Below the pieces are notes generated by a model, which saw only the letters and a program-made list of their open reading frames with translations, was not told the origin of the DNA and searched no databases. The translations under genes were made by a program, and so were the position numbers. A stretch of DNA of 64,000 nucleotides, from NCBI GenBank assembly GCA_900696575.1, contig CAADHD010000016.1, forward strand, positions 62,001 through 126,000, written 5' to 3'. This DNA comes from an uncultured Bacteroidota bacterium. Its GTDB lineage: Bacteria > Bacteroidota > Bacteroidia > AKYH767-A > OLB10. Positions 9,310 through 38,746 of this stretch are shown piece after piece; the stretch's first letter is position 1, and each line of letters begins with the position of its first letter.

Positions 9310-10005
9310 ATGCCAAGACTAACAAAAAACAGAAAATTAGTAGAGAAAAAATTTGATCTCGAAAAAAGTTACTCCGTTCAGGAAGCAGCTAAAATGGTAA
9401 AGGAATTAACCTTTACAAAGTTTGATTCATCCGTTGATCTTAATGTAAGGTTAGGGGTTGACCCGCGTAAAGCCAACCAGATGGTAAGAGGTATAGCTAC
9501 CCTTCCGCATGGAACCGGCAAAAAAGTACGTGTACTGGTGCTTTGCACTCCTGACAAAGAAGCCGAAGCCAAAGAAGCAGGTGCAGATTATGCAGGGCTT
9601 GATGAGTACATTCAGAAAATTGAACAGGGTTGGCTTGAAATGGATGTGGTTATCACTATGCCTTCGGTAATGGCCAAGGTTGGTAAGCTGGGAAAAATTT
9701 TGGGACCCCGAAACCTGATGCCGAATCCGAAAACAGGAACGGTTACTACCGAAGTTGGCAAAGCGGTAAAAGATGTAAAGGGAGGAAAAATTGATTTTAA
9801 AGTTGACAAAGCCGGCATCATTGCAACTTCGATAGGCAAATCATCTTTTGATGCCAACAAAATTTATGAAAATGCCAATGAGGTGCTTACTACTATTGCT
9901 AAGCTCAAACCGGCTTCTGCCAAAGGAGCTTACTTTAAAAGCATAACCATGAGCAGCACCATGAGTCCGGGCATTAAAATAGATACCAAATCTTTTCAGC
10001 ACTAA
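9310..10005 (+). CDS. rplA: 50S ribosomal protein L1
   Basis: L1 (231 aa) builds the mobile L1 stalk that handles exit of deacylated tRNA, and in many bacteria it also represses its own mRNA. Conserved segments are [31 protein letters not shown] near residue 130 and the C-terminal [11 protein letters not shown]. An in-frame ATG exists at 9286 (MHNINFNK), but homologues begin at the MPRLTKNRK Met, so 9310 is chosen. Confidence 0.97.
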
Positions 10006-33391: not shown

Positions 33392-35554
33392 TTATTCACT
33401 GCTTTGTGGTAAATGGCCGGTTTTTTCAGGCGATTTAATAAAACGCAGCATTAAAGAGTTGCCAATAACAACCACATCGGAGAAAGCCATAGACAAGGAA
33501 GCTACTATCGGAGCCAGATAACCGGCTGCTGCCACCGGTATGGCCAGTACATTATAAAAGAACGCCCAGAATAAGTTTTGTTTAATGGTTTTTATGGTTG
33601 ATTTGCTCAACCGGTAAGCCAGCAGCAGATCATTTAACTGATGTTTGCGCAGTAAAATAATATGAGCGCTTTGCATGGCAATGGCCGATGCCTCGGAAAA
33701 CGAAATGGAAACATCAGCCGTGGCCAGTGCTCCTGCATCGTTAATTCCATCACCGGCCATGGCTACCGTCCCTTCCTTTTTTAATCGCTGAATGATGGCT
33801 GTTTTTTCATGCGGCAACTGACCGCTGTAAACTTCTTCAATGCCTGTCTTCTTTGCCACCGCTTCGCATTTCTCTTTTTTATCGCCACTGATAAGCACCG
33901 TTTTGATTCCGGCTGATTTTAATTGATAGATGACTTCTGCTGCCTGCCCGTTTAACTCATCTGTCATTGAAAGTGCAGCTACCGTTATTCCGTTTTTGCT
34001 CACGTAAATGTCAAAAAAGTTTTCCATCTCAGGATTGACAAACCGATATGAACCCATTTTCCATTCATTACCTGAAATATCTTTTCCGGTTATGCCTGCA
34101 CCTTTTATTTCTTCAATACTTCTGAAGGGCAATACCTCCGGCTTGCCGAATTTTTTTTCGATTTCATTCACCATGGATTTGGCTAACGGATGATTCGACT
34201 GTAACTCCAGCATGTAAATAGCCTGAAGTGTTTCTTCTTTTTCTGTCTGAAAAAACTCCAGTTTGTCAATCGTGAATTCGCCTTTGGTTAATGTGCCTGT
34301 TTTGTCAAATGCTACGATGTTAACTTTACTTAATGTTTCAAGATGTTGTCCGCTGCGGATGAGTATTCCGCTTTGGGCAGCTCTGCCGGTTCCGGCACTT
34401 AAAGCGGTGGGCGTGGCCAATCCCATAGCGCAGGGGCAGGCAATTACCAATACGGCAATGGCTCTCAATACAGAACCGGTTATATTGATATCAGCCATAA
34501 AATGATTGATCAAAAATGTAATGATGGCAACAAGAATAACTGCCGGTACAAACCAGCGGCTTATCTTATCGGCCATCCGCTGAACTGGCGGCCTGAACTG
34601 CTGCGCCTTTTTTACCAATTCAATTATTCCTGAAAGGGTAGTCTGCCTGCCGGCTTTCTCCACAAAAATTTTTATGCTTCCTCCGTTAACAATGGAACCC
34701 GCCAGCACCGAATCGTTTATTGTTTTGGAAACCGGCACAGGCTCACCTGTTAAGGCGGCTTCGTCAATCCATGCGCTGCCTTCAAAAATTTTTCCGTCAG
34801 CCGGAATCTGATCGCCTTCAGCAATCAACAGCAAATCATTGGGCATTATTTCATCGGCATTGATTTCAATCACTTGTTCGGAGGAGGTGCTCCATCCTTC
34901 AATTTTTCTTGCTCTTGCAGGTTGCAAACGAATAAGCGAATCAAGGGCTGCTGTTGTTGTCTTTATGGTACGGTGTTCTATCAGGTTTCCAAGAAGTACA
35001 AAGCAGATGATGGTGGCCGAGGTTTCGAAAAACAGATAACGGTTTGCATCAGCCGTCCCGTAATGAATAATCATTCCGGCTATGCTGTAAAGAAATGCCA
35101 TACTTGACCCGAGTAATATTAATACATCCATATTCGGGTCGAGTGCTTTTACAGATCCCATGGCACCTTTTCCGAAATAAATCCATCCGATTACCAAAAC
35201 CGGAATGCATAGCAGCAGTTGAAACCATGCATTATGCAGTACGGGCGTATGCAGAAACATGTGTGCCAGTAACGGAAGAGTGAAAACTATAGATACTCCG
35301 AAAAACCATTCAAGCTTTCCTGATGTTTCCGCATGATGATTTTCATCAGCCTTGCCGGTTACTTTATAGCCAATGCTGCTTATGCCCTTAATGTATTCTT
35401 CCAGTTCATTTTCTTCTGCAATAAACTCTACTTTTCCCGAAGTATAAGAAACATGAACATCCTTGCCGCCTTTCTTTTCAATTAATCGGGAAATGCTTTG
35501 CGCACAATTGGCGCAGGTCATACCTTCAACCCGTAAAATGGTTTTTTGATTCAC
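33392..35554 (-). CDS. copA: Heavy-metal P1B-type ATPase, copper type
   Basis: This 720-aa pump exports Cu(I) at the cost of ATP. One N-terminal HMA domain contains GMTCANCAQS. Eight membrane helices are expected, with the ion-site motif CPCAMGLATPTAL near residue 375. DKTGTLTKG near 418 carries the phosphorylated Asp, TGEPVPV is in the actuator domain, and GDGINDAGALATADVSIS is near 600. The CPC motif and single HMA match the CopA group. Translation appears to start at a GTG (35554-35552), followed by NQKTILRVEG. A near-consensus -7 element (CAAATTTG, 35559-35566) lies only 4 nt before it. No copper regulator or chaperone gene is adjacent. Confidence 0.93.
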   Translation of the reverse strand: MNQKTILRVEGMTCANCAQSISRLIEKKGGKDVHVSYTSGKVEFIAEENELEEYIKGISSIGYKVTGKADENHHAETSGKLEWFFGVSIVFTLPLLAHMFLHTPVLHNAWFQLLLCIPVLVIGWIYFGKGAMGSVKALDPNMDVLILLGSSMAFLYSIAGMIIHYGTADANRYLFFETSATIICFVLLGNLIEHRTIKTTTAALDSLIRLQPARARKIEGWSTSSEQVIEINADEIMPNDLLLIAEGDQIPADGKIFEGSAWIDEAALTGEPVPVSKTINDSVLAGSIVNGGSIKIFVEKAGRQTTLSGIIELVKKAQQFRPPVQRMADKISRWFVPAVILVAIITFLINHFMADINITGSVLRAIAVLVIACPCAMGLATPTALSAGTGRAAQSGILIRSGQHLETLSKVNIVAFDKTGTLTKGEFTIDKLEFFQTEKEETLQAIYMLELQSNHPLAKSMVNEIEKKFGKPEVLPFRSIEEIKGAGITGKDISGNEWKMGSYRFVNPEMENFFDIYVSKNGITVAALSMTDELNGQAAEVIYQLKSAGIKTVLISGDKKEKCEAVAKKTGIEEVYSGQLPHEKTAIIQRLKKEGTVAMAGDGINDAGALATADVSISFSEASAIAMQSAHIILLRKHQLNDLLLAYRLSKSTIKTIKQNLFWAFFYNVLAIPVAAAGYLAPIVASLSMAFSDVVVIGNSLMLRFIKSPEKTGHLPQSSE

Positions 35555-35657
35555 TCTGCAAATTTGGTACGTTTAATAAAAAGCCATCATGAAAGTTTAA
35601 GTGGCATTGACTTCTCTGCCATTAGCAGATCCTGTTTTGGCTTTTAAGAAGGGATAT

Positions 35658-35825
35658 GCGTTACAAACGCGCGCCATTAGAGGGTAATCTGGTTGGTGAA
35701 AAAACACCAACCAGAGGCAAAGTGAAAAAACACCAACCAGAGGCAAAGTGAAAAATCACCAACCAGAGGCAAAGTGAGAAAACACCAACCAGAGGCAAAG
35801 GGCACGCGATACAAACACGCGCCAG
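35658..35825. repeat. 26-bp tandem repeat (4 copies) with hairpin and REP-like flanks
   Basis: The core CACCAACCAGAGGCAAAG recurs at 35705, 35731, 35757 and 35783, an exact 26-bp period with A-rich spacers (differences mostly in the spacer). Just before copy 1, TCTGGTTGGTG (35688-35698) is the inverse of CACCAACCAGA (35705-35715), giving an 11-bp hairpin with a six-A loop. The array is bracketed by similar sequences, GCGTTACAAACGCGCGCCA (35658-35676) and GCGATACAAACACGCGCCA (35806-35824). The first contains the palindrome GCGTT-ACA-AACGC, which resembles REP elements mobilised by TnpA-REP transposases. Confidence 0.85.
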
Positions 35826-35829
35826 CAAC

Positions 35830-35862
35830 TTGTTTAAATGCTGATACTTCAACCTATATTTG
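35830..35862 (+). promoter_or_regulatory. Promoter for the nuoGHI cluster
   Basis: TTG at 35830-35832, a 22-nt spacer and TATATTTG at 35855-35862 match the Bacteroidota promoter pattern. The -7 box ends 7 nt before the nuoG ATG, so the mRNA would be leaderless or nearly so. The promoter lies immediately downstream of the repeat block. Confidence 0.6.
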
Positions 35863-35869
35863 CCCACCG

Positions 35870-36847
35870 ATGCCGAAAGTTACTATTGACGGGCATACCA
35901 TCGAAGTGCCCGAAGGGACTACCATCCTTAATGCAGCCCGAATGATTGGCGGTGATATTGTTCCGCCTGCCATGTGTTATTACTCTAAACTGGCCACCAG
36001 CGGAGGCTATTGCCGCACCTGCATTGTACAGGTTACCAAAGGCTCTGAAAAAGACCCGCGGCCAATGCCGAAACCCGTTGCTTCTTGTCGTACCACAGTG
36101 ATGGATGGCATGGAAGTAAAAAACATTACTTCGCCCGAATTGCTTGAAGCGAGAAAAGGAGTAGTTGAATTTCTTTTAATCAATCATCCGCTTGATTGCC
36201 CCATCTGCGATCAGGCAGGCGAATGCCATCTGCAGGATTTGAGTTATGAACATGGTCTCAACAAATCGCGTTATGACTTTAAGCGCAGGGAATTTGAAAA
36301 AATTGATATTGGCGATAAAATAAAACTGCACATGACGCGCTGCATTCTCTGCTACCGGTGTGTTAAAGTGGCCGAGCAGATTTGTCCGGGCAGAGTTCAC
36401 GGGGTGATGAACAGGGGAGATGTTGCCGAAATTTCAACCTACATTAAAAACTCGGTGGATAATGAATGGAGCGGAAACATGATTGATGTTTGCCCGGTTG
36501 GCGCGCTTACAGATAAAACATTCCGTTTCAAATCGCGTGTATGGTTTACAAAACCGATGGATGCACACCGTAAATGCGAAACCTGTTCAGGTAAAGCGGT
36601 TTTGTGGTTAAGCGGTGATGAGGTGCTGCGTGTTACCGGCCGAAAGGATAAGTATGGCGAACTGGAAGACTGGATTTGCAATACCTGCCGTTTTGAAAAG
36701 AAAAACAAATCAGATTGGACAATGGAAGGCCCCCGTCATATTGACCGTCATAGTGTCATCTCACAAAACCATTATGAATCGTTAAAGCAATTAAAGATTG
36801 ATGTTTCGAAGCAGAAGAAAATTGCAGAGAAAGCACATCAGTCGTAA
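35870..36847 (+). CDS. nuoG: NADH-quinone oxidoreductase subunit G (short, iron-sulfur part only)
   Basis: This 325-aa protein carries the electron-wiring part of complex I subunit G. A 2Fe-2S ferredoxin-like domain has CYYSKLATSGGYCRTC and a later Cys in VASCRT. The His-Cys3 cluster is HPLDCPICDQAGEC near residue 105. A 4Fe-4S site has CILCYRC and VCPVGA near 160-215, and a last cysteine set (CETCSG, and CNTC after 35 residues) follows. It ends there and lacks the large molybdopterin-like domain of enterobacterial NuoG (about 900 aa). Short forms of about this length are known in Bacteroidota. The frame is open upstream into the repeats, but MPKVTIDGH at 35870 is the natural start. Confidence 0.93.
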   Translation: MPKVTIDGHTIEVPEGTTILNAARMIGGDIVPPAMCYYSKLATSGGYCRTCIVQVTKGSEKDPRPMPKPVASCRTTVMDGMEVKNITSPELLEARKGVVEFLLINHPLDCPICDQAGECHLQDLSYEHGLNKSRYDFKRREFEKIDIGDKIKLHMTRCILCYRCVKVAEQICPGRVHGVMNRGDVAEISTYIKNSVDNEWSGNMIDVCPVGALTDKTFRFKSRVWFTKPMDAHRKCETCSGKAVLWLSGDEVLRVTGRKDKYGELEDWICNTCRFEKKNKSDWTMEGPRHIDRHSVISQNHYESLKQLKIDVSKQKKIAEKAHQS

Positions 36848-36868
36848 CAACTTTGAAAAATTTTCAGC

Positions 36869-37903
36869 GTGGATACCACTGAATTTCTCATAAAACTCAT
36901 CCTTGTGATTTCCGTTTTCGGTATTTCATTGCTCATTGCCATGTACAGTACCTATGCCGAAAGAAAAGTGGCTGCTTTCCTTCAGGATCGTTTAGGGCCT
37001 AACCGTGCAGGGCCTTTTGGGATTCTTCAACCTGTAGCTGACGGTGTTAAAATGTTTATGAAAGAAGAAATCATTCCGGCCAATGCCGATAAATTTCTTT
37101 TCATAGCCGGCCCCAGCCTGATGATGCTTACTGCCTGCATGACAGGAGTGGTAATTCCCTGGGGCGGAGAATTGACTATTGGCCGTAATACATTCAACCT
37201 GCAGATTACGGATGTAAACATCGGCTTGCTCTATATCTTCGGAGTAGTGTCCATCGGTGTTTATGGTATCATGATTGGCGCATGGGCTTCCAATAACAAG
37301 TATTCATTGATGGGAGGACTTCGTGCTTCTTCGCAAATGATCAGCTACGAATTAGCCATGGGTATTTCCATTATTGCCTTAGTAATGACTACAGGCACTC
37401 TCAGTACAAAAGAAATAGTAGAGCAGCAATCATCATGGCATTGGAACATCCTTTACCAGCCGCTCGGCTTTCTCATTTTCTTGGTATGCGCTTTTGCTGA
37501 AACCAACCGCACTCCTTTCGATTTGCCCGAATGCGAAACCGAATTGATTGGCGGTTTCCATACCGAATACTCATCCATGAAACTCGGCTTCTACCTCTTT
37601 GCCGAATATATCAACATGTTTATCTCTTCCGCCATTTTAGCTACACTTTATTTTGGCGGATATAATTTTCCATTCATTGAATCATGGGGATTATCGCCCA
37701 ATGCAGTTACCATCATCGGAACCCTGCTCTTTTTCGGAAAAATTTTCTTTTTCATTTTCTTTTTCATGTGGGTACGCTGGACCATCCCCCGTTTCCGTTA
37801 CGACCAGTTGATGAACCTCGGCTGGAAAGTCATGATTCCTTTGGCTTTGTTCAACCTGTTCATCACCGGTATCATTACCCTCTGGAGAAACGGAGCATTT
37901 TAA
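36869..37903 (+). CDS. nuoH: NADH-quinone oxidoreductase subunit H
   Basis: NuoH (344 aa) is the membrane subunit of complex I that forms most of the quinone-binding site and links the peripheral arm to the proton pumps. About eight membrane helices are present. Conserved segments are YAERKVAAFLQDRLGPNRAGP and the acidic loop ETNRTPFDLPECETELIGGF near residues 210-230. Translation starts at a GTG (36869), 21 nt after nuoG. The C-terminal MWVRWTIPRFRYDQLM is typical. Confidence 0.96.
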   Translation: MDTTEFLIKLILVISVFGISLLIAMYSTYAERKVAAFLQDRLGPNRAGPFGILQPVADGVKMFMKEEIIPANADKFLFIAGPSLMMLTACMTGVVIPWGGELTIGRNTFNLQITDVNIGLLYIFGVVSIGVYGIMIGAWASNNKYSLMGGLRASSQMISYELAMGISIIALVMTTGTLSTKEIVEQQSSWHWNILYQPLGFLIFLVCAFAETNRTPFDLPECETELIGGFHTEYSSMKLGFYLFAEYINMFISSAILATLYFGGYNFPFIESWGLSPNAVTIIGTLLFFGKIFFFIFFFMWVRWTIPRFRYDQLMNLGWKVMIPLALFNLFITGIITLWRNGAF

Positions 37904-37962
37904 TCGGATTACAGGATTTTAAATGAATTGCAGTTTAAAAAATAGCAGAAACTCATACAGCA

Positions 37963-38181
37963 ATGAAAGTAAGTAAACTGAAAGACATCACTGTTTATCA
38001 ACAGATGATGGAACTGATCCGGATTGGAAACAAAGGAAGAGAACAGACATTGGCAAAGAATAAAAGATTGGGGTTTCCCAACGAATTCAGCATTAACGGT
38101 ACTTTATGCTTCCAGCTTCCTGATGGAACCATTACCACCCGTTCACCATTCAAAAAGTTGAAGTCAAAAAAGAAAAACTGA
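37963..38181 (+). CDS. Small basic protein of unknown function inside the nuo cluster
   Basis: This 72-aa frame lies between nuoH (59 nt away) and nuoI (22 nt away) on the same strand. It has no signal peptide or membrane helix. The N-terminal half is predicted helical (LKDITVYQQMMELIRIGNKG). The middle reads like a short beta unit (SINGTLCFQLPDGTITTRSPF), and the tail is Lys-rich (KKLKSKKKN). I do not recognise the family. The position suggests co-expression with complex I genes, but a random insertion cannot be excluded. The coding look (balanced composition, clean boundaries, A-rich leader like the neighbours) favours a real gene. Confidence 0.6.
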   Translation: MKVSKLKDITVYQQMMELIRIGNKGREQTLAKNKRLGFPNEFSINGTLCFQLPDGTITTRSPFKKLKSKKKN

Positions 38182-38203
38182 TTGTTGTTAATTAGCACCG
38201 GTT

Positions 38204-38746
38204 ATGCAAGCATTAACTAACCGCAGCATGGTGGTGGTCAATAAAAAAATGACCTGGATGGAACGCATTTACCTTCCGGCTATCATCGGGGGGTTGATGA
38301 TAACTATCCGTCACCTGTTTAAAAAGAAAGTAACCATTCAATATCCCGAACAAGAGCGTCCGCGCTCTGCCGTTTACCGCGGATGGCATGTATTGAAACG
38401 CGATGAACAGGGAAGAGAAAACTGTACAGCCTGCGGCCTTTGTGCCGTGGCCTGCCCTGCCGAAGCCATTACCATGACGGCTGCCGAGCGTAAGCCCGGT
38501 GAAGAACATCTTTACCGCGAAGAGAAATATGCGTCTGTTTACGAAATCAATATGCTGCGCTGTATCTTCTGCGGACTTTGCGAAGAGGCCTGCCCCAAAG
38601 AAGCCATCTTTCTTACCGACCGCATTGTGCCCTCCGGTATGCTGCGCGAGAATTTTATTTTCGGAAAAGACAAATTGGTTGAAGGAGTTGAACCCGATAA
38701 TCGCATTGATGTATCGAAACGGGCCCGGGCACACCGCACATATTAA
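38204..38746 (+). CDS. nuoI: NADH-quinone oxidoreductase subunit I
   Basis: NuoI (180 aa) is the ferredoxin-like subunit that carries clusters N6a and N6b, next to the quinone site. Two complete 4Fe-4S motifs are visible: CTACGLCAVACP near residue 73 and CIFCGLCEEACP near 122. The N-terminal part contains the amphipathic segment that attaches it to the membrane arm (IYLPAIIGGLMITIRHLFKK). The ATG at 38204 gives a slightly long N-terminus, and Met residues at 9 or 16 are alternatives. nuoJ-N do not follow, and a Kelch protein gene comes next. Confidence 0.94.
   Translation: MQALTNRSMVVVNKKMTWMERIYLPAIIGGLMITIRHLFKKKVTIQYPEQERPRSAVYRGWHVLKRDEQGRENCTACGLCAVACPAEAITMTAAERKPGEEHLYREEKYASVYEINMLRCIFCGLCEEACPKEAIFLTDRIVPSGMLRENFIFGKDKLVEGVEPDNRIDVSKRARAHRTY

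Follow-up and report, generated by a model that had tools for sequence, protein, structure and literature searches.

The intergenic region between a copA-like gene and nuoG in the window, the whole stretch of 64,000 nucleotides analysed from an uncultured Bacteroidota bacterium (genome G000; 2.87 Mb in 35 contigs), very probably holds a nested cluster of two unrelated families of dispersed palindromes, in which the arms are REPs associated with a RAYT, an orphan hairpin lies between them and the 3' half of this hairpin has slipped to four copies. Most probably the locus is a scar left by mobile DNA, specific to this lineage and of a kind already known, and a function for copA or nuoG is not needed to explain it.

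The centre of the cluster consists of four tandem 26-bp copies of the 3' half of a hairpin together with its tail (35696–35799, + strand). The exact 26-bp period and the four units described in the initial annotation were recovered by TRF (35696–35800; period 26, 4.0 copies, 96% matches, indels 0), and a comparison of units showed that unit 2 is identical to unit 1, with a single-base difference from unit 1 in both unit 3 and unit 4. The perfect 11-bp hairpin said to open the array was also found as described, TCTGGTTGGTG (35688–35698) being the exact reverse complement of CACCAACCAGA (35705–35715) with an 11-bp stem and a 6-nt loop. This hairpin (35688–35715, + strand) is made up of a 5' half and part of the first 26-bp unit, so that the start of the 26-bp period falls within it, and the region reads TCTGGTTGGTG-AAAAAA-CACCAACCAGA, then GGCAAA and then three more 3' halves, GTGAAAAAACACCAACCAGAGGCAAA. 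The unit core matched four times in the window in comparison to no matches in 100 dinucleotide shuffles, and folding of 186 nt around the array gave z = -3.24, with an equally good fold in 1 of 200 shuffles. An Rfam scan of the whole window at gathering thresholds returned five tRNAs and left the array unmatched. A CRISPR reading of the array was rejected, as its units lie head-to-tail without spacers.

Searching G000 with the unit pattern GGTTGGTGAANNNACACCAACCNNAGGCA identified 14 sites at ≤3 mismatches and none with the reversed control, and the hairpin of the window matched the unit model R1 with E 2.3e-14 as one of its training rows. Judged by sequence, the 26-bp unit corresponds to the 3' half of hairpins that form a second dispersed family (type GGTTGGTG), in which stem pair 8-31 is CG in 5 of 10 rows and UA in the other 5. 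The initial annotation had regarded the array as an insert that was picked up and multiplied; multiplication stands, with the 3' half of the hairpin as the multiplied part, while the supposed insert is itself a member of this second hairpin family. Nine of the 11 unit model loci with full flanks were outside ORFs of ≥100 aa, in comparison to 8.5–11% of random positions, and the remaining two were inside one 124-aa ORF of doubtful reality. Neither a GTAG nor a CGTC tag was present at the hairpin foot in the 10 unit rows. On contig C9 a 76-bp segment with the hairpin at its end is duplicated. When the unit was considered as a possible end of a larger transposon, the starts of contigs C3 and C34 (L171 1–328 and L172 1–345) proved to have about 330 bp in common at 95% identity, with similarity that stops at a unit hairpin; other matches to this segment in the genome were partial. 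Elsewhere on C16, a gene for a NamZ-type exo-muramidase (L174 5143–6673) has unit-family hairpins on both sides.

The array is flanked by two arms, of which arm 1 (35649–35684, + strand) is a REP-like imperfect palindrome with core TACAAACGCGCGCCA at 35662–35676 and tail TTAGAGGG, and arm 2 (35797–35832, + strand) is a second copy with core TACAAACACGCGCCA at 35810–35824. They had been reported as near-identical direct repeats, the first with its own palindrome, and our comparison agreed, as the 15-mers differ at one base and have the same orientation and arm 1 holds the palindrome GCGTT-ACA-AACGC, but the surrounding 28-mers are only 79% identical. The palindrome of arm 2 is interrupted, and arm 2 is no less stable as folded RNA (-6.4 kcal/mol vs -4.5 kcal/mol for arm 1). 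Both arms matched the arm model R2 as training rows of that model (G000:C16:97649–97684, E 1.0e-8; G000:C16:97797–97832, E 2.1e-9). As a direct and not an inverted REP pair, they do not form the basic unit of a REPIN or BIME. Within the window only, the core matched 4 times at ≤3 mismatches in comparison to 2.89 expected, which is not significant; its significance comes from exact copies and from the rest of the genome.

Across G000 the core matched at 12 sites with ≤1 mismatch, and at 26 sites with ≤2 mismatches in comparison to 11 for the reversed control, so that many two-mismatch matches may be due to chance. The R2 model, built from 19 training copies with the palindrome GGC-A-CGCGTT-ACA-AACGCG-C-GCC and one stem mismatch, gave 28 matches at E≤1; at E≤0.001 there were 22, among them all 19 training rows. 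The copy number of the arm is modest to low. Arm loci with full flanks were outside ORFs of ≥100 aa in 20 of 24 cases (8.5–11% of random positions), a sample that includes weak matches and leaves out 4 further loci cut by contig ends. Of the four loci that overlap an ORF, two fall in the 5' part of the RAYT ORF, another is arm 2 of the window, which overlaps the nuoG ORF at its 5' end, and the last is a weak match (E 0.2); the RAYT and nuoG ORF starts that overlap arms are probably over-extended, and for nuoG the ORF listing gives an earlier start at 35774, in place of which the ATG at 35870 was used. None of the 19 arm rows had GTAG or GTGG at a distance of up to 6 bases from a hairpin foot, and CGTC was present in one of them. 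Compensatory change in the arm stem was no more frequent than in shuffles, a result that is weak either way since the rows were chosen by sequence.

A Y1 transposase gene of the TnpA-REP type, which the initial annotation had suggested looking for, is present in the same genome with arm copies on either side. This RAYT gene (C32:48772–49242, - strand) is the only one in G000 above the NF047646 cut-off (101.7 bits; cut-off 80) and also matches Pfam Y1_Tnp (25.6; cut-off 23). Its HuH (NHLH) and Tyr (YLHNNP) regions align with those of E. coli TnpA-REP 4er8 at a whole-sequence E of 0.00078, the single stretches being weak (E 10 and 0.46), and a WQ motif is also present. The gene is bracketed by six arm copies, three per side and in opposite orientations (48562, 48595 and 48628 on the - strand; 49312, 49351 and 49400 on the + strand). 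The dispersed, mostly intergenic copies, six of which bracket a RAYT gene of G000, support, at the level of sequence, the interpretation of the arms as REP-type, as first guessed, and the genome-wide search proposed at that stage returned further copies of both arm and unit, in opposition to the view that neither recurs.

The flanks of RAYT genes (≤700 bases, several shortened by contig ends) were surveyed at 19 loci, 18 from relatives and our own, among 25 above the cut-off. Inverted 14-mers shared across both flanks occurred at 5 of 19 loci in comparison to 1 of 400 control placements, and direct ones at 4 of 19 in comparison to 9 of 400. Any repeated 14-mer, whether shared or within one flank, was found at 13 of 19 loci including our own, with within-flank repeats at 39 of 400 control placements; the control pieces come from nuoG loci and are mostly coding, which may understate the background. 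Repeated flanks were absent at 6 of 19 loci. Several of the repeated flanks in related genomes appeared palindromic by eye. Tandem palindrome arrays adjoin RAYT genes of relatives in the same class at three loci (L188, L200, L202), with seven copies of GGCACTTGGAAGTGCC at L200.

For the class of this RAYT we refer to PMC6006769, which we take to be Quentin et al. 2018. RAYT/TnpA-REP subclass 2.6 (Bertels group 5) is reported mostly from Bacteroidetes and carries the motifs NH[LIV]H, WQ and YIH[QN]NP; 'atypical secondary structures' flank its genes and recur at other genomic sites (PMC6006769). The RAYT of G000 is likewise flanked by hairpins copied elsewhere in its genome, and its motifs are close to those published, with L for I once (YLHNNP), an assignment made by motifs and not by tree. 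The arms lack a GTAG or GTGG foot but subclass 2.6 is reported as atypical, which bars the term canonical GTAG-REP and leaves that of atypical REP. The tagged REPs with GTAG or CGTC are also short dispersed palindromes, and their CGTC families resemble our unit family in being without a dedicated transposase, but unlike them the two families described here carry neither tag apart from the one CGTC among the arm rows (PMC3733652).

A cognate transposase for the unit family was not found around the RAYT gene, an IS200 gene or a RAYT-like gene on C33. Around the RAYT gene (L178) there were no unit copies, with arms there instead, and 29 RAYT loci of relatives gave just two weak four-mismatch resemblances to the unit (L191 and L205). 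The IS200 gene at C27 (L182) was rejected as a source of the unit, with no unit hairpin in the surrounding 7 kb. The RAYT-like ORF on C33 (L227 3096–3719) scored 60.3 bits with NF047646, under the cut-off, had no Pfam match and is flanked by a cas9-like gene (RuvC_III, HNH_4) and cas1-cas2; 5.3 kb of its surroundings held neither arm nor unit. It could be argued that the array is a chance tandem repeat unconnected with mobile DNA, as slippage is generally known to make short arrays anywhere, yet this is contradicted by the membership of both components in dispersed families and by the arm copies that bracket the RAYT gene, and we give it almost no credence.

Among the stretches fetched, an arm stands beside a unit at only one locus other than the window (C15:52418/52453). 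Only a few bases there separate one unit hairpin from the arm that follows it, and order and orientation match those of the window; no left arm was present within the 10 kb of that locus. The chance of 2 of 9 unit loci adjoining an arm was estimated at 0.0006–0.0034, a rough value from hand-pooled loci and a guessed intergenic fraction. A further stretch (L065) with a weak arm (E 0.007) and a four-mismatch unit 19 bp off was left out of the count of juxtaposed loci. Another palindrome family, the third (AACCGCGAAGCGGTGA with ATCCCTTCGGGAT), adjoins arms at C28 (L181), C12 (L179) and C18 (L233), and at C27 it is found upstream of the IS200 transposase gene. Direct arms bracket this family at C28 (arms at 9480, 9645 and 9781, all +) and C12 (arms at 1 and 293, both +), while at C18 an arm and the third family lie side by side.

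These arrangements, together with the repeated unit-arm order at C15, can be interpreted as one composite mobile element, in which the direct arms act like IS200/IS605 ends and the RAYT moves palindromic cargo. We consider this unlikely, as an identical arm-unit-arm block was never seen twice among the loci fetched, C15 is without its left arm, the arms at C28 and C12 have diverged (C28:9480 at E 0.00115; C12:1 with 4 mismatches) and nested independent insertions give the same picture. The related proposal that the RAYT would read a pair of direct arms as a left and a right end, and transport or capture any palindrome that they enclose, here the 26-bp hairpin family and at C28 and C12 another family, is in our judgement improbable.

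The genes on either side of the cluster are a divergent copA-like P-type ATPase gene (33392–35554, - strand; Pfam E1-E2_ATPase, Hydrolase and HMA) and nuoG, coding for the N-terminal domains of complex I NuoG (35870–36847, + strand; Pfam Fer2_4, NADH-G_4Fe-4S_3 and Fer4_Nqo3), which is followed by nuoH and nuoI. A predicted promoter-like sequence upstream of nuoG (35830–35862, + strand) comprises TTG (35830–35832), beginning 5 bp plus one base past the core of arm 2, and TATATTTG (35855–35862); we take it to resemble a Bacteroidota promoter. The gap between the two motifs is 22 nt, and only 7 nt separate TATATTTG from the nuoG ATG. In nine same-family genomes, the ones with a close nuoG among 11 searched (the other two had distant homologues only), nuoF is directly upstream of nuoG with no more than about 107 bases between the matches. 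This statement is confined to the nine loci as read from coordinates, and a scripted adjacency count of 63 of 87 was set aside as it misses minus-strand loci and includes real gaps. In G000 the complex I operon is split, with nuoDEF on C25 (L231 1233–4306) and nuoGHI on C16 (window 35870–38746), and since the two genes stay together in the nine genomes the join between copA and nuoG most likely arose newly in this lineage. The protein match of nuoF extends up to residue 433 of 441, and its end is overlapped by a 428-aa ORF of the opposite strand. The 9 kb around nuoF contained no arm and no unit, and a REP-mediated break is therefore not supported.

At E≤0.01 the unit model matched only its own genome among 21 and found no copy in the 20 relatives, while the arm model at E≤0.001 matched 3 of 41 genomes, with 22 matches in G000 and a single weak one apiece in two of the 40 relatives; these searches score the best 150 candidates per genome, with stricter filters in the 41-genome run, and weak copies may be missed. 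The one same-genus genome, G001, had neither arm nor unit at these thresholds, and its nuoG match (L224) was only distant (37%) despite 99% completeness. In 80 public nuoG loci (524,518 bases; the best 80 of at least 592, three of them with <300 bp upstream of nuoG) no arm was found at ≤5 mismatches and no unit at ≤3 mismatches. Conservation of the array in distant relatives, named in the initial annotation as an outcome against its reading, was thus not observed in the relatives and public loci searched, and there is accordingly no comparative support for a regulatory role. A terminator, attenuator or set of protein-binding repeats serving the copA-nuoG region might be suggested by the strong first hairpin and by its place between divergent starts near a promoter-like motif. 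The same hairpin, however, occurs beside unrelated genes, and no T-run follows the hairpin of the array, which along with this distribution makes such an element very unlikely.

Our preferred reading is thus the nested cluster, in which the arms would be REPs of an atypical type that belong to the Bacteroidota RAYT whose gene lies at another site of G000. Such hairpins are believed to be mobilised by RAYTs in single-stranded form, and for this reason the arms most likely go back to two separate insertions of a REP, or to a direct pair of the kind found next to the RAYT gene. In the order of events that we infer, one copy of the second hairpin family, which is without a known enzyme, would have come to lie between the arms, and replication slippage at this hairpin would then probably have raised its 3' half and tail to four copies. 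Points against the nested cluster are the lack of a GTAG/GTGG foot, compensatory change in the arms at no more than the level of shuffles, the low copy number, the direct arms, the failure to find unit hairpins around the RAYT, IS200 and RAYT-like genes of G000 and the RAYT loci without repeated flanks (6 of 19).

Comparable settings have been described in other genomes. In Pseudomonas fluorescens SBW25, clusters of unrelated REPINs have been attributed to elements that inserted within or beside others already in place, and ordered tandem REPIN clusters occur too (PMC3116915). This insertion account, by analogy, fits a copA-nuoG locus in which REPs and an orphan palindrome may have settled together, although SBW25 repeats whole REPINs (inverted doublets) and here a half-hairpin is repeated between direct arms. 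REPs are also reported as targets of insertion sequences, so that other elements land in them (PMC1525189), whereas the neighbour at our locus is a small hairpin and not an insertion sequence. No account of the arm or unit family was noticed in a text search of the literature, where the sequences themselves are not searchable.

In summary, for the biology of copA or nuoG the array is probably unimportant. The locus links an atypical family of REPs with its own RAYT within one Bacteroidota genome and places a second, orphan palindrome family beside these REPs. As related RAYT loci often have repeated flanks (13 of 19), they offer a fair test bed for atypical REP recognition, and if capture by direct arms were true, orphan palindromes would be passengers of a foreign REP system.
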